From assembly GCA_002742765.1 (NCBI GenBank), contig DLUF01000053.1, forward strand, positions 1-46,711: DNA of 46,711 bases, written 5' to 3'. A program made the translations under genes and the position numbers. This document shows positions 17,215 through 26,988 of this stretch, piece after piece. The notes under the pieces were generated by a model, which saw only the letters and a program-made list of their open reading frames with translations, was not told the DNA's origin and did no database searches. Positions within the stretch are counted from its first letter, which is position 1. Each line of letters begins with the position of its first letter. This DNA comes from Sulfurospirillum sp. UBA12182. Lineage in GTDB: Bacteria > Campylobacterota > Campylobacteria > Campylobacterales > Sulfurospirillaceae.

Positions 17215-17814
17215 ATGATGATTATAGATTGTAAGGGATTAGTTTGCCCAGAACCAGTTTTAAAAACAAAAAAAGCTCTCGAAGAGTTACCAAACGATTC
17301 TATCTTAGAAGTGAGTGTGGACAATGTTGCTTCAAAAGAGAATGTTCTAAGATTTGCTTCAAAACAAGGTTTTAGTGCAGATGCAGAGGATTTGGGTGGA
17401 AATGTTTTTAAAATCACTATCGTAAAAGGTTATGAGTGCGGTATAGTCGCTCAAACTCCAAGCAATGAATCAAAATTTTTAAATAAAGTACTTTTTATAA
17501 AAGATGATAAAGTAGGTGAAAATGAGCTTGGAAGTATGCTTGTTGTCGGTTTTTTAAAAAGTATTTTAGAGCTTCCAAAGCTTCCACAAACTATTATATT
17601 CGTCAACAAAGGTGTTTTACTTACAAGTGCTGATGAAAGTAGTGATGTTATCAAGATTTTAAAAAATTTAGAAGAAAAAGGTGTTGAGATATTTTCGTGC
17701 GGTGTTTGTTTGGATTTTTATAAAGTCTCAGATAAACTCAAAGTTGGCAAAATCGGAAATGCTTATGGGACTATTGAAACCCTCTTTAACTCTGAAGGAA
17801 CGATAAGTATATAA
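17215..17814 (+). CDS. yedF: Selenium metabolism protein YedF (TusA domain plus DsrE domain)
   Basis: This 199-residue two-domain protein has an N-terminal TusA/SirA domain with the CPEP motif (IDCKGLVCPEPVLKTKKAL), whose Cys carries sulfur or selenium. The second half is a DsrE-like domain (KVLFIKDDKVGENELGSMLVVGFLKSI... EIFSCGVCLDFYKV) with a CxxC pair near residue 161. This architecture is known as the putative selenium metabolism protein YedF, commonly found next to selD. Here its stop overlaps the selD start by one base (TAATG), which supports a joint role in delivering selenium for selenophosphate. GGAG at about 17206 supports the first of two adjacent ATG codons. Confidence 0.88.
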   Translation: MMIIDCKGLVCPEPVLKTKKALEELPNDSILEVSVDNVASKENVLRFASKQGFSADAEDLGGNVFKITIVKGYECGIVAQTPSNESKFLNKVLFIKDDKVGENELGSMLVVGFLKSILELPKLPQTIIFVNKGVLLTSADESSDVIKILKNLEEKGVEIFSCGVCLDFYKVSDKLKVGKIGNAYGTIETLFNSEGTISI

Positions 17815-18845
17815 TGAATAATAGCTATAAATTAACAAAGTTTGTCAAAGCTGCTGGTTGAGCTGCCAAATTAGCTCCGGGTGAGCTATCACATGTCCTT
17901 GGCAAGCTTACATGTAACGATGAGAGACTTTTAGTTGGTATAGATAGTAATGACGATGCGAGTGTATTTGCACTCAATGAAAACCAAGCACTCGTGCAAA
18001 CAGTCGATTATATAACACCTGTGGTTGATGACCCGTTTGTTTATGGACAAGTTGCTGCTGCAAACTCACTAAGTGATGTATTTGCTATGGGGGCAGATGT
18101 CTTAACTGCTATGAATCTTGTAGGATTTGATGGTTGCCACCATCCAAAAGAGGTTCTAGGCGAGATACTAGCTGGTGGACTTTCAAAGATAAAAGAGTGT
18201 GGCGGTGTTTTAGCAGGAGGTCATACCATAGAGACTCCAGAGATGACCTATGGGCTTAGTGTAAGTGGTCTTGTTCATCCAAAAAAGATTTATCGAAATA
18301 ACACTCCACGAGTAGGGGATTTGCTGATTTTAACAAAACCTATCGGATTAGGAGTGCTTACTACTGCCATAAAGGCAGATATGTTAGATGAAAAAGCGAT
18401 AGAAAAAACAGCACAGATTATGGCTCAGTTAAACTATAAAGGCTCACTTGCTATGCGTTTATATGATGTGAGTGCTTGTACAGATATTACTGGATTTGGT
18501 TTGGCTGGACACGCTTTAGAGATGGCAGGGAACAGTGTGAGCTTGGAGTTTGATTTTTCGCTCATTCCTCTTATAGAAGAAGCGATAGAGTTAGCAAGTA
18601 TGGGTATCATTCCAGCTGGAACATACAATAACAAAGCGTATGTATCTTTACATGTAAAGAAGATAAGAGCCTACGAGGATGATATCTTTTTTTATGATGC
18701 GCAAACTTCTGGCGGATTGCTTATAAGTGTAAATCCAAAAGATGCTCAAAAACTTTTATCCACTCTAAAAGAAGAAGGCTATGAATATAGCCAAATTATC
18801 GGTGAAGTAAAAAACAAAGATGAAAAGAGTTTGATTATACGTTGA
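17814..18845 (+). CDS. selD: Selenide, water dikinase SelD (selenoprotein)
   Basis: SelD makes selenophosphate from selenide and ATP. The reading frame from ATG 17814 crosses TGA at 17859-17861 in KAAG-Sec-AAKLAPG, the exact place of the catalytic Cys/Sec (Cys17 in E. coli). The product is thus a 343-residue selenoprotein that depends on its own pathway. ATP-binding and core blocks are DDASVFALN, QTVDYITPVVDDPFVYGQVAAANSLSDVFAMG, GGVLAGGHTIETPE and TDITGFGLAGHALEM. A hairpin starts 10 bases after the UGA. Counting only from the downstream GTG would lose the active-site region and is wrong. Two palindrome copies are read as LTCN and LHVK. Confidence 0.94.
17859..17888 (+). promoter_or_regulatory. 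Bacterial SECIS element in selD
   Basis: After the UGA (17859-17861) TAGCTC (17872-17877) pairs with GAGCTA (17883-17888) around CGGGT. A 6-bp stem, G-rich 5-base loop and 10-base distance are similar to the hairpin in fdhA, as expected for one SelB. Confidence 0.8.
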
Positions 18846-18885
18846 TGAAATTTTGATATTTTTTTGATGTTTTTAGGCTTATAAT
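18842..18885 (+). promoter_or_regulatory. Response-regulator-type operator and promoter of the potassium operon
   Basis: TTGAT occurs at 18842, 18853 and 18864, exactly 11 bases apart, followed by T/A-rich fill. The -10 box TATAAT is at 18880-18885, with 11 bases between the last TTGAT and it and no separate -35 box. Tandem 11-base direct repeats ahead of a -10 box are the arrangement used by PhoB/OmpR-family activators. The KdpE-like product of this operon is the obvious candidate. The first repeat overlaps the selD stop. Confidence 0.6.
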
Positions 18886-18912: not shown

Positions 18913-19014
18913 ATGTCAAATCATTTTTTTGAGATATTAACGGAAGATGCTTTTTTAGTTATCCTTCTTGTTTTAATACTCGTTAAAATCTTGAGTACGA
19001 CTTTAAAGACTTAG
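18913..19014 (+). CDS. Small one-helix membrane peptide (KdpF-like position)
   Basis: This 33-residue protein consists of a polar start (MSNHFFEILTEDA), one hydrophobic helix (FLVILLVLILVKIL) and a short STTLKT tail. GGAAG lies 4 to 8 bases upstream and the stop is 3 bases before the kinase start. It fits the size and topology of KdpF-type or other small membrane regulators, but its sequence shows no clear family. Being the first gene of the sensor-TrkAH operon, it may modulate the kinase or the Trk channel; this is inference. Confidence 0.6.
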   Translation: MSNHFFEILTEDAFLVILLVLILVKILSTTLKT

Positions 19015-19017
19015 TGA

Positions 19018-20022
19018 ATGCTAAAAAAATACAAGTTTCATCTCGTTTTACTCTTTGTACTCCTTTTTATCACGCTTATTAGCCATCTTTTTAGAACAGA
19101 TTTAGAGGTGATCAATATCGCCTTAATCCATCTTTTACCTGTGATTTTAGTAGCACTTAGAGGAGATTTTCTACTCACTATTGTAGTTACTTTAGTGACA
19201 CTTGTTTTGTTTGATTTACTTTATATCCCTCCTTTATATAGTTTTGATGTTCACGATATCTACTATATTTGGAGTTTTATCATCTTTATCTTAGTTGGAT
19301 ATATCATCACATGGCAGGCAAAAAAAATCCATTCAAATCAAATCAAAGAAGTTTTGCTCAATGCTCTTTCTCATGATTTAAAAACTCCTATATCCTCTAT
19401 ACTTGGTAACACAATGATACTCCTTGATAAAGAGGAGATTCAAGATAAAGAGGGTTTGTTAGAGATTAAAAAATCGAGTGAAAAAATCAACCGTTTGATA
19501 GCAAATCTCTTAGATAGTGCGAGATTGCAAGGTGATTTTGTAAAACTTCGTTTTGATTGGTGTGATTTAGAGGATACTTTAGGTGTGGCTTTGCAAGAGT
19601 TTGATTCTTCTAGTATAGATAAAATCCAAATCCAAATCGAGCCAAATATCCCTCTTTTTTGGGGTGATTGTACTTTGATAAGCAGGCTTTTTGTCAATCT
19701 TATCGATAATGCACTCAAATACACAGAAGAGAGAGAAAAAATCAAAATTTCTATGTATCAACAAGATAAAGAGATACATATCAAGTTTTTTAACCAAAGC
19801 AAAGTTTTTTCCAAAGAGGATTTAAAAAATATCTTTGATAAGTTTTATAGACTAGATAATGCAGCGGATATCTCAGGTAGCGGTATAGGGCTTTCGATAT
19901 GCAAAAATATAGTAGATTTGCACCAAGGACATATACAAGCCTCTTGCGAAGAAGATGGCTTATACTTCATCATCAAATTACAGATTTTAAAAAGAGCTTT
20001 TATGATAGATAAAGAGTTATAA
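19018..20022 (+). CDS. KdpD-like sensor histidine kinase (short form)
   Basis: This 334-residue membrane kinase has an N-terminal part (residues about 8-100) with four closely packed membrane helices. It is like the DUF4118 region of KdpD, with LTIVVTLVTLVLFDLLYIPPLYSF typical. The H-box NALSHDLKTPISSILG (His near 119), N-box LFVNLIDNALKYTE near 227 and G2-box GSGIGLSICKNIV near 288 follow. The large cytoplasmic KdpD N-terminal domain and the USP domain are missing. It is followed without a gap by the KdpE-like gene and then trkA-trkH, so it probably senses potassium or osmotic state and controls Trk instead of Kdp. Confidence 0.85.
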   Translation: MLKKYKFHLVLLFVLLFITLISHLFRTDLEVINIALIHLLPVILVALRGDFLLTIVVTLVTLVLFDLLYIPPLYSFDVHDIYYIWSFIIFILVGYIITWQAKKIHSNQIKEVLLNALSHDLKTPISSILGNTMILLDKEEIQDKEGLLEIKKSSEKINRLIANLLDSARLQGDFVKLRFDWCDLEDTLGVALQEFDSSSIDKIQIQIEPNIPLFWGDCTLISRLFVNLIDNALKYTEEREKIKISMYQQDKEIHIKFFNQSKVFSKEDLKNIFDKFYRLDNAADISGSGIGLSICKNIVDLHQGHIQASCEEDGLYFIIKLQILKRAFMIDKEL

Positions 20023-20724
20023 ATGGAGATAAAAGAGATAATTTTAGTTATAGAAGATGACAAAGCTATCGCAAAGATTTTAACTGCTGCTCTTGAAGAT
20101 AGCTATAAAGTTATTGTTTCTAAGAGTCTTGAAGATGCATATCGAAAGTTTACGAGCTTTAATCCCTCTTTGATACTTTTAGATTTAGGTTTGCCAGATG
20201 GAGATGGAAAAGAGTTTATCAAACGAGTCAGAGAGTTAGGGGATAAGCCTATCATCGTGGTTTCTGCTAGGTTTGATGAAAAAGAGATTGTCAATTGTTT
20301 GGATTTGGGGGCTGATGATTATGTGACAAAACCTTTTTCCATCAAACAGCTTCAAGCTCGTATCCGCTCGACTTATAGAAGATATGAGAGACATATGAGT
20401 CCTTTAGATAACAGAGTTGTTTGCCAAGAATTGAGCGTTGATTTAGTTAGTCGTGTTGTTATGAAAAATGAGACTCTCATCAAACTTACTCCTACTGAAT
20501 ATAATCTTTTAAAATTCATGATAGTACGCCCAAATAAGGTTTTAACACATCAAGTTATCTTAAAAGAGATATGGGGAGTAGGGTATCAAAATGAGATGCA
20601 GTATTTGCGAACTTATATAAACTCATTAAGAAAAAAGATAGAAACAGATACGACAAGACCAAAATATATAATCACAGAATCAAGTATCGGGTATCGGTTT
20701 TGTTGCAATGAAGAGGAGCATTGA
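20023..20724 (+). CDS. KdpE-like response regulator (OmpR family)
   Basis: This 233-residue protein has a receiver domain with acidic pair EDD near residue 9, phosphoacceptor Asp in LILLDLGLPDGDG near 54, Ser/Thr in VVSAR, and Lys in VTKPF near 105. The winged-helix domain contains KLTPTEYNLLKFMIVRPNKVLTHQVILKEIWG and ends with YIITESSIGYRF, the close match to KdpE. It starts directly after the kinase stop and overlaps trkA by one base. The three 11-base-spaced TTGAT repeats before the operon are its likely target. Confidence 0.88.
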   Translation: MEIKEIILVIEDDKAIAKILTAALEDSYKVIVSKSLEDAYRKFTSFNPSLILLDLGLPDGDGKEFIKRVRELGDKPIIVVSARFDEKEIVNCLDLGADDYVTKPFSIKQLQARIRSTYRRYERHMSPLDNRVVCQELSVDLVSRVVMKNETLIKLTPTEYNLLKFMIVRPNKVLTHQVILKEIWGVGYQNEMQYLRTYINSLRKKIETDTTRPKYIITESSIGYRFCCNEEEH

Positions 20725-22040
20725 TGGATATCATTATAGCGGGTGTTGGTGGAGTTGGATTTAGATTAGCCAAAGCTTTGAGTGTCGCTCACAATGTAAT
20801 CGTGATGGATAGAAATGTAGAAGCTCTCAATAAACTTCAAGAAAGCATAGATGTCTTAACATTAGGTGGAAATGTAGAAGACCCAAGAACTTATGAGGCT
20901 CTTTTAGAAAAAACATATGACCTTTTTATAGCAGTTACCGATAGTGATGAGATAAATATCATCTCTTCGCTTATAGCCCAAGAGCGTATCAAAGTAAGGC
21001 AAAAAATAGTTCGGCTCAAAAATGAGTTTTTTGCGAGAAGCTCTATCGCTCAAAAAGTTGGCATAACTGAAGCGGTTTTTCCTTTTGAACTCACAGCACT
21101 TTCTGTAAAAGCGCTTTTAGATTTCCCAAAAGCAAACAATGTTAAATCGTTCTGTGGAACATCTCTAAAGCTTATCTCTGTAAGGACTTTTTTTGAAAAT
21201 GAAGCTGAACAAATCAGTATCAATGAAATTAGAAATGAGAGAGTTTGCATAGCTGGCGTGGATAGAGGAAAGAAGTTTTTTATCCCCTCTAATGAGGATT
21301 ATCTTTTGCATGATGATATGATTTATCTTTTTGGAAAGCCTGAAGAGATTAAAAAGATATGCTCAAAAATCAATAAAAACATGCCCTCAGTCATAAAAAA
21401 TGTTGTTATCTTTGGTGCAGATGTTTTGGGTGTAGAGATAGCAAAAGTTCTCTCAAAAGAGAATATTGCTATCAAAATAGTCGAAAAAGATATTCAAAAA
21501 TGTAAAAACGCAGCCGAACTCTTACAAAACAGAGCAACTGTTATCAGTAGCAAATACGGGGACAATGTTTTTTACGAAGAAGAGGGACTTAAAAATGCAA
21601 ATATGGTCATAGCGACAAGTGCTAATGATGAAGAAAATATCGTCAAATGCGTAGAGGCTAAAGAACATGGTGTTAAGAAAGTTGTTGCTATCAACAACGA
21701 TATAAAACACTATAATCTAATGCACTCTTTGGGGATGATGGTTGTAAGAGGTCCAAAGATTAATGCTTATTACTCCATTTTAGAACTCATCGGTTCAAGC
21801 TCCATTGTAAGAGAAAAACTGTTTTGTGGTGGAGAAGCGATAGGGTTTATTAGAGAAGTAATCCCATCAGATAAAAAACTAAAAGCGATCGAGGGTGAAG
21901 ATATCTTGTCACTCATTATCCATGAAGATGAGATATTTTGCTTTAAAAAAGATTTCATTCCTGAGCAAAAAAGTATCTTGGTATGTTTTTGCAAAAGAAA
22001 ACATGAACAAAGGTGTCGAGAGTGGATAAACAATCTATAA
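20724..22040 (+). CDS. trkA: Trk potassium uptake regulatory protein TrkA
   Basis: This 438-residue cytoplasmic gating ring protein carries two RCK repeats. The first NAD-binding fold is MDIIIAGVGGVGFRLAKAL with DRN after beta 2. The second begins near residue 225 (NVVIFGADVLGVEIAKVLSKENIAIKIVEKD). Each is followed by a TrkA-C type segment. It binds the TrkH channel and switches it with nucleotide. ATG 20724 is preferred because GAGGAG lies 5 bases upstream and it overlaps the regulator stop (TGATG). It overlaps trkH at its 3' end. Confidence 0.9.
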   Translation: MDIIIAGVGGVGFRLAKALSVAHNVIVMDRNVEALNKLQESIDVLTLGGNVEDPRTYEALLEKTYDLFIAVTDSDEINIISSLIAQERIKVRQKIVRLKNEFFARSSIAQKVGITEAVFPFELTALSVKALLDFPKANNVKSFCGTSLKLISVRTFFENEAEQISINEIRNERVCIAGVDRGKKFFIPSNEDYLLHDDMIYLFGKPEEIKKICSKINKNMPSVIKNVVIFGADVLGVEIAKVLSKENIAIKIVEKDIQKCKNAAELLQNRATVISSKYGDNVFYEEEGLKNANMVIATSANDEENIVKCVEAKEHGVKKVVAINNDIKHYNLMHSLGMMVVRGPKINAYYSILELIGSSSIVREKLFCGGEAIGFIREVIPSDKKLKAIEGEDILSLIIHEDEIFCFKKDFIPEQKSILVCFCKRKHEQRCREWINNL

Positions 22041-23476
22041 AAAATATCTTAAAAATCCTCTCTCTTGTGGGCATGGGTTTGTCTTTTTTGTTTTTGTTGC
22101 CTATCTTTATAGGAGTACATTATCAAGAGCATTTTTTTGATTTTTTGGTTTTTGATGCAGGATTTTTTCTTTTGAATTTTTTGTTTTATCTCGTAGTTAG
22201 AAATCATGAAGTAGCTTTGAGTATCAAAGAGGGTATCTTGTCTGTAAATCTCATCTGGATACTTCTTGGTGTCGCAGGTGGAGTTCCATTGTATCTTTAT
22301 TCTGACATCTCTATTTTACAAGCTTTTTTTGAAGCTATAAGTGGGTTTACCACCACAGGAGCTACTATCTATGCAGACATAGAAGCGCTCCCTAATATGT
22401 TGTTGATGCATAGAAGTTTGATGCACTGGATTGGAGGTATGGGGATTATCGTTTTAAGTGTAGGACTTTTATCTTTGATAAACCCAAATGGTTCTTTAAC
22501 CCTTTTTAAAGCAGAATCAACTGGTATAAAGCTTGAAAAAATAACTCCTAAGATAAAAGATACTGCGATACAACTCTGGCTGATATATCTTCTTTTCACG
22601 GCTATTTGTACCTTTTTACTCACTATCGAGGGTATGAATTTTTTTGATGCACTCAATCATGCTTTTTCTACTATCTCCACAGGAGGTTTCTCTACGAAAA
22701 ATAGTTCTGTCGGATATTTTTCCGATGACCCGCTTATCCTTTGGACGATTACTTTTTTTATGATTATCTCAGGTATCAACTTTTTAGCACACTTAAAGTT
22801 TATGAAAGGAGATACCATAGGCTATAAAACAGAAGAGGTTTTTTGGTATCTAGTTATCTTTTTAACGATAAGTTTGGCTTTGATGATAAGTGCACTCATA
22901 AAGACTGATTTGGGTTGGTTTGAAGCACTCACACATGCGAGCTTTAACGTAGCTTCACTCCTCACTACGACAGGCTTTGCTTCCAATGATTATGAACTTT
23001 GGGGTTCTTTATGTGTTACACTTTTTTTTATCGTAATGCTCATAGGAGGCAATGCAGGCTCAACTTCTGGTGGCGTTAAAGTGGTACGCTTTGTTTTAGG
23101 GGCAAAAGTTGCCTTTGCTGAGATACAAAAAATCCTACATCCAAGTGCAATCATCAATGTCTTTATGAATAAAAATGTCATTTCACCTAACATCATCTCA
23201 GCTACTTTTGGCTTTTTCTTGCTTTTTGTTTTTACAAATGCGATTATCGTGGTATATCTCTTTGCAAATGGTTATGATGCCCTTACTTCAGTTTCAACTG
23301 CTATTGCTTGTGTTGGCAATGTTGGTCCTGGATTTGGTATGATAGGTCCATCAAAAAACTACGCTTTTTTTTCCGATGTAGACCTGAGCATCCTCTCTTT
23401 TGCGATGATTATAGGAAGATTAGAGATCTATACTTTTTTTCTCATTTTGATGCCAAACTTTTGGAAAAAATTTTAA
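22022..23476 (+). CDS. trkH: Trk potassium channel protein TrkH
   Basis: This 484-residue membrane protein has eight to ten hydrophobic helices and four selectivity-filter loops: ISGFTTTGATIY, FSTISTGGFSTKN, ASLLTTTGFASND and ACVGNVGPGFG. GGNAGSTSGGVKVVR is the conserved loop that contacts TrkA. GTG at 22022 is chosen since AAAGG lies 8 bases upstream. A GTG at 22013 would have no ribosome site. The gene overlaps trkA by 19 bases. It is the last gene of the operon and ends at a bidirectional hairpin. Confidence 0.9.
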   Translation: MDKQSIKNILKILSLVGMGLSFLFLLPIFIGVHYQEHFFDFLVFDAGFFLLNFLFYLVVRNHEVALSIKEGILSVNLIWILLGVAGGVPLYLYSDISILQAFFEAISGFTTTGATIYADIEALPNMLLMHRSLMHWIGGMGIIVLSVGLLSLINPNGSLTLFKAESTGIKLEKITPKIKDTAIQLWLIYLLFTAICTFLLTIEGMNFFDALNHAFSTISTGGFSTKNSSVGYFSDDPLILWTITFFMIISGINFLAHLKFMKGDTIGYKTEEVFWYLVIFLTISLALMISALIKTDLGWFEALTHASFNVASLLTTTGFASNDYELWGSLCVTLFFIVMLIGGNAGSTSGGVKVVRFVLGAKVAFAEIQKILHPSAIINVFMNKNVISPNIISATFGFFLLFVFTNAIIVVYLFANGYDALTSVSTAIACVGNVGPGFGMIGPSKNYAFFSDVDLSILSFAMIIGRLEIYTFFLILMPNFWKKF

Positions 23477-23493
23477 GGGTTGTAAAACCCTTA
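23474..23493. terminator. Bidirectional terminator between trkH and the MFS gene
   Basis: TAAGGGTT (23474-23481) pairs with AACCCTTA (23486-23493) around GTAA. It overlaps the trkH stop and touches the stop of the minus-strand neighbour. Flanks are T- and A-rich. Confidence 0.7.
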
Positions 23494-26832: not shown

Positions 26833-26930
26833 GGCGAGAAGGTGTAGGAATCGAACCTACCAACAACTAGTCAACTAGCCATCCATCGGGTTTGAAGCCC
26901 GTGCTGCCCACCAGGGTCAGATACCCCCCA
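26833..26930 (-). tRNA. selC: tRNA-Sec (anticodon UCA)
   Basis: On the minus strand the anticodon arm CGGG-CTTCAAA-CCCG presents UCA. It is followed by a long variable arm (GGCTAG-TTGA-CTAGTT), a T-arm GTAGG-TTCGATT-CCTAC and a templated GCCA end. The long variable arm and UCA anticodon identify selenocysteine tRNA. The acceptor 5' strand is a run of six G, so pairing with ACCTTCTC needs three G-U pairs, and the outermost base pair is uncertain. For this reason the 5' boundary may shift by one base. It decodes the UGA codons of fdhA and selD. Confidence 0.88.
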
Positions 26931-26988
26931 CTTTTTGAAATGAGAATGTAACTTTATCTAAAAATATGTAAAAAAAAGCTTATTTAAC

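Follow-up and report, generated by a model that had tools for sequence, protein, structure and literature searches.

A potassium-uptake operon in the Sulfurospirillum sp. UBA12182 DNA analyzed here (a stretch of 46,711 nucleotides, called the window throughout) is preceded by a box of two TTGAT-type half-sites at a fixed distance from its −10 element. The same site and geometry are conserved in five families, in front of operons with different K+ transporters; the box is also present before kup, and it is absent where the kinase-regulator pair encoded by the operon is absent. Comparison with characterized systems makes it probable that the operon's own KdpE-type regulator autoregulates the operon and, placed as PhoB would be, promotes K+ uptake, with both the binding and its sign deduced from sequence.

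The promoter and the operon behind it

TTGAT occurs four times upstream of the operon, at 18831, 18842, 18853 and 18864, with an exact 11-bp period. The initial annotation had reported three copies, beginning at 18842; the period was correct, and the in-phase copy at 18831 had been missed. It had also placed the repeats about one turn upstream of TATAAT and in lieu of a −35 box. The distance from the last TTGAT to the TATAAT is indeed 11 bp, and no TTGACA-like hexamer was found 16–18 bp from the TATAAT at 18880. The proposal that the repeats accommodate tandem PhoB/KdpE-type dimers had to be narrowed: spacing and half-site layout match the published KdpE site, but only one dimer site (two half-sites) is conserved. 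The conserved unit consists of the last two repeats, i.e. a TTGATA-N5-TTGATG doublet (18853–18869) with a 6+5+6 layout at the −35 position (Table 1).

The exact pattern TTGAT-N6-TTGAT-N6-TTGAT was matched twice (overlapping) in the window and not at all in 100 dinucleotide shuffles. The TTTTGAT-N4-TTTTGAT doublet is unique at 0 mismatches in the 2.25-Mb genome. The doublet score before the TATAAT at 18880 was 10/10, compared to 7/10 or less before the other 42 TATAATs of the window.

The gene upstream, selD (17790–18845), has an in-frame TGA (KAAG-U-AAK), so that SelD is itself a probable selenoprotein. The minus strand of the window carries a gene for selenocysteine tRNA at 26836–26931.

Table 1. 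Features of the promoter and operon (window coordinates)
Feature	Position	Strand	Remarks
Fourth in-phase TTGAT	18831–18836	+	selD Leu-Ile codons, among the last of the gene; absent from the nearest relative, G001
Third in-phase TTGAT	18842–18847	+	Overlaps selD stop codon (18843–18845); absent from the nearest relative, G001
Half-site 1, KdpE-type, TTGATA	18853–18858	+	Fixed register kept in orthologous operons
Half-site 2, KdpE-type, TTGATG	18864–18869	+	Conserved; 6+5+6 layout with half-site 1, as in PMC3264566
−10 box TATAAT, without −35 box	18880–18885	+	Gap of 11 in 38 of 41 orthologs
Small ORF (33 aa, single-span), KdpF-like in size, operon head	18913–19014	+	Similar tiny ORFs in many orthologous operons
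Short KdpD-like histidine kinase	19018–20022	+	DUF4118 + HisKA + HATPase_c; without KdpD or Usp input domains
KdpE-like OmpR/PhoB-family response regulator; presumed ligand of the box	20023–20724	+	Domain and family-model matches, structure comparison
TrkA, cytosolic K+-channel gating subunit	20724–22040	+	PF02254 (TrkA_N domains)
TrkH, K+-channel subunit; sole TrkH gene found in the genome	22013–23476	+	PF02386
Terminator-like hairpin, then T-rich tail; operon end	23474–23493	+	

The genes 3′ of the promoter are tightly packed or overlapping, in the order small membrane ORF, histidine kinase, response regulator, TrkA and TrkH. The initial annotation had named a Trk system and a KdpE-like regulator among the products, and both identifications stand. 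The Trk K+-uptake system is represented by the TrkH channel (PF02386) and by TrkA with its TrkA_N domains (PF02254). For the regulator, the best NCBIfam match was the KdpE model (209.8 bits, under the equivalog cut-off of 325), and the best solved structure was E. coli KdpE (PDB 4kny). Residues R193, R200 and T215 have been named as DNA contacts of KdpE (PMC3264566); their equivalents, R196, R203 and T218, are invariant in the regulator alignment. When genome contigs were scanned with this alignment, distant KdpE homologs from other phyla were among the matches listed. The best family model for the kinase was KdpD (184 bits, under the cut-off of 1123). As in KdpD, a DUF4118 membrane domain is joined to a HisKA/HATPase core; a domain search found neither the KdpD N-terminal domain nor the Usp input domain in this protein.

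In many orthologous operons (L267–L273, L293, L297), a single-span ORF of 26–34 aa separates the box from the kinase gene. An example from f9, again KdpF-like in size, is MSISNIIMLTILGILTLILLIKLPKA. The small ORF is apparently missing in genus g2. It may encode a small membrane protein, so far unannotated, that partners the kinase or the transporter.

Neither KdpA nor Kup was detected in the source genome (98.8% complete), and TrkH is present in one copy. Of the three importer families searched (KdpA, Kup and TrkH), this operon provides the only member found there, and, with no KdpA, kdpFABC was not found as a target for a Kdp system.

Conservation and distribution of the box

Orthologous operons were located first via the regulator and then, blind to the box, via the kinase, in a search that covered 399 genomes of the order. 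Forty-one of them, from five families (f1, f9, f17, f6 and f21), were compared. The doublet and TATAAT together scored at least 15/16 in 38 of the 41 at a period of 11 and a gap of 11 (the exceptions were G120, G148 and G219); because this score was refined with the sequences already in view, and because the genomes are related, the p values of single promoters serve for description, and it is the gap, the period and the non-orthologous controls that carry the argument. Other gaps were satisfied by 0–5 of the 41 promoters and other periods by 0–9. Eight non-orthologous kinase promoters (seven of distant kinases and one of a paralog) scored 10–12/16, and the paralog in G232 is without the box.

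In the nearest relative (G001) and the other f1 genomes, the promoter reads TTTTGAT-N4-TTTTGAT-N11-TATAAT (with one mismatch in G380), and the sequence and genes 5′ of it differ. The promoters of f9, f17, f6 and f21 are more degenerate, yet TTGAY-N6-TT(G/T)AY-N11-TATAAT is retained; most of those in f9 have TTTAC as the second half-site. The half-site has G at position 3 in the window, as it does in most relatives. TT opens each half-site, save that one half-site in G204 starts with CT. Counterparts of the repeats at 18831 and 18842 were absent from G001 and the g2 genomes. In 20 of the 41 promoters (loci L262, L264–L273 and L274–L285, of f9, f6 and part of f17), a second KdpE-like doublet of the TTTATA-N5-TTGAT type precedes the proximal box by exactly 31 bp, an offset of approximately three helical turns. 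The importer genes that follow the sensor and regulator vary (TrkA-TrkH in g1 and G248, KtrB-KtrA-like elsewhere), with sensor, regulator and box constant.

A search of the 399 genomes for the exact promoter returned 16 matches: 14 before the kinase gene, one before a probable broken-off kinase copy (the contig ends 83 bp after the promoter, in an apparent kinase start) and one before kup. An exact shorter form gave nine matches in 14 genomes, all at the kinase operon or kup. The kup promoters fall into two classes. Boxed kup genes occur in five genomes, all of which have the operon; the box is exact in G013 and degenerate in G030, G380, G022 and G036. The unboxed class includes all copies from the five surveyed genomes in which kup occurs without the operon. 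The G013 gene (L092, L115, L116; G013:C1:1591808-1593123), which is the sole exact-boxed kup, is split across two reading frames and is thus probably a pseudogene; other genomes have intact boxed copies, in which the box is more degenerate.

The box was absent from the kdpFABC promoters of the same genera, and those genomes have a separate, full-length KdpDE. In genus g2, the kdpFABC promoters have a conserved upstream stretch of their own, CATCCTAACAAAATCCTTATCTTTTA..., unlike the box (L117–L119, L122 and L123, upstream of kdpA), which is possibly the site of the full-length KdpE. In G002, a genome of the same genus as the source, selD is directly followed by trkA-trkH, and kinase, regulator and box are all absent; the box is likewise absent from same-family genomes without the kinase-regulator pair. 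The two kup classes, the kdpFABC promoters and G002 together indicate that the box travels with the kinase-regulator pair and precedes K+ importers of different kinds (Trk, KtrB-KtrA-like and Kup). The initial annotation had proposed looking for the same repeat before orthologous operons. Since the core pair is kept at a fixed −10 distance in 38 of 41, its interpretation, positive autoregulation of a Trk system by a Kdp-type pair, is not refuted, and it gains further support from the box before kup, a K+ transporter gene of another kind.

Several candidates were rejected. A weak box in G002 proved to be trkH coding sequence. Near matches with one mismatch in other families (L061–L070 and L087–L090) precede unrelated genes and were treated as chance occurrences, with the exclusion of L064, which is an exact operon match in G056. 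Another doublet promoter, found in G000:C85 and relatives, was discounted because it differs in the first half-site, lacks an Rfam match and is not closely followed by an ORF. This conserved promoter, TTTNGATGAACTTTTGAT...GTATAAT (G000:C85:3691-3725, L096; also L078, L093 and L094), has no long ORF close downstream and may serve a short gene or an RNA not yet described.

Proposed mechanism and alternatives

The mechanism that best fits these observations would begin with the short KdpD-like kinase, which would phosphorylate the regulator, presumably when K+ or turgor is low. A dimer of the phosphorylated regulator would then bind TTGATA-N5-TTGATG head-to-tail on one helix face, the last two repeats serving as one dimer site. 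Because the site stands in for the −35 box, as pho boxes usually do in E. coli, we infer that the bound regulator acts like PhoB, i.e. by directly recruiting sigma-70 RNA polymerase to the −10-only promoter. Transcription of the small ORF, kinase, regulator, trkA and trkH would consequently rise, which would amount to direct positive autoregulation. Features that count against this reading include the G at position 3 of the half-sites, a position differing from that of the E. coli site, and the kdpFABC promoters without a box in relatives.

In sigma-70 promoters of Campylobacterota, a periodic A/T signal replaces the −35 box (PMC3656092, PMC3847290), and the repeats could be this signal only, with no regulator bound. 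The sequence at the repeats is rich in T and shares the phase of such a signal, which would account for the missing −35 box; since the periods are similar, part of the T-richness may belong to the promoter, not to the operator. That the signal is the whole explanation is nonetheless quite improbable, as the letters TTGAY themselves, beyond A/T richness, are conserved across families, the combination is confined to K+-uptake promoters (none of the 16 exact matches in 399 genomes or the nine in 14 genomes was assigned to another kind of gene), and the doublet scores at the window's other TATAATs are inferior. Another OmpR/PhoB-family regulator of K+ uptake might own the box, given the dozens of response-regulator homologs in the genome (42 matches) and an 11-bp repeat layout that is common to OmpR-family sites. 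This seems very unlikely, because box and kinase-regulator pair come and go together: the box is found in nearly all orthologous operons and not in same-family genomes lacking the pair, and G002 retains trkA-trkH without kinase, regulator or box.

A different sign of regulation was also considered. OmpR-family regulators are capable of repression, site and polymerase footprint overlap, and the promoter might function without help, since Campylobacterota promoters need no −35 element. Negative autoregulation, in which the regulator would block RNA polymerase near the −10 box until relieved at low K+, is still judged unlikely: the geometry is that of activating pho boxes (PMC4971064), the known action of KdpE on kdpFABC is activation (PMC5458449), and K+ importers of several types carry the box. 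That three or four repeats work together as an array of tandem dimers, which would extend the single-dimer mechanism and not oppose it, is doubtful to a lesser degree. Four in-phase copies were observed with none expected, and the second doublet 31 bp upstream in 20 of the 41 promoters demonstrates that two-dimer promoters exist in this system. The upstream repeats of the window, however, are missing from G001 and the g2 genomes, overlap selD codons and the stop, and are 22 bp upstream rather than 31.

Beyond the proposed activation by the operon's own regulator, the balance tips modestly toward an apparently undescribed K+ regulon that spans several families of the order, wherein a minimal Kdp-type pair with its autoregulatory KdpE-like box forms a portable module controlling the importer behind it (Trk, Ktr) or elsewhere (Kup). 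If this is true, importers that are normally constitutive would be inducible, and K+ or turgor would be sensed by the DUF4118 membrane domain alone. Trk has been described as constitutively expressed and Kdp as an inducible pump (PMC3610689); here, control of Trk or Ktr seems to lie with a Kdp-type pair. Each component (KdpE sites, PhoB-like geometry, Trk and Ktr) is already known. A short KdpD/KdpE pair with an autoregulatory box controlling Trk/Ktr was not found in a partial literature search, which is weak evidence of absence. The analysis yields a defined operator, a predicted regulon (Ktr/Trk and Kup) and a natural minimal KdpD; as the latter is devoid of the KdpD and Usp input domains, what KdpD senses could be tested with the membrane domain alone. 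It also provides an example of how to tell a sequence pattern in a −35-less promoter apart from the A/T periodicity that Campylobacterota promoters have in general.

Comparison with known systems

The E. coli KdpE site upstream of kdpFABC comprises the 6-bp repeats TTTATA and TTTACA on either side of a 5-bp spacer, and their TT is invariant across genera; KdpE binds there at −72 to −50, upstream of the −35 box (PMC3264566). The box of the window has the same two 6-bp direct repeats, N5 spacer and opening TT, with a KdpE-like regulator encoded nearby and K+ uptake as the target. It differs in having G at position 3, where E. coli has T (TTTAYA), in being set against the −10 box, and in preceding a kinase-regulator-Trk/Ktr operon instead of kdpFABC.

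In position, the box resembles the pho boxes of E. coli, where PhoB sites usually replace the −35 region (PMC4971064): both have direct repeats with an 11-bp period instead of a −35 box, next to a sigma-70 −10 element, although the half-site letters and the physiological system are different. The proteins are akin to KdpD and KdpE in the DUF4118 domain and kinase core and in the regulator's nearest model and structure, and they differ in the kinase's missing input domains, the sub-equivalog score of the regulator and the lack of kdpA in the genome. With Campylobacterota sigma-70 promoters in general, the promoter shares a TATAAT −10 box without a −35 box and an A/T-rich, periodic upstream region; it is distinguished from them by specific TTGAY half-sites, which keep a fixed register and are restricted to K+-uptake genes.
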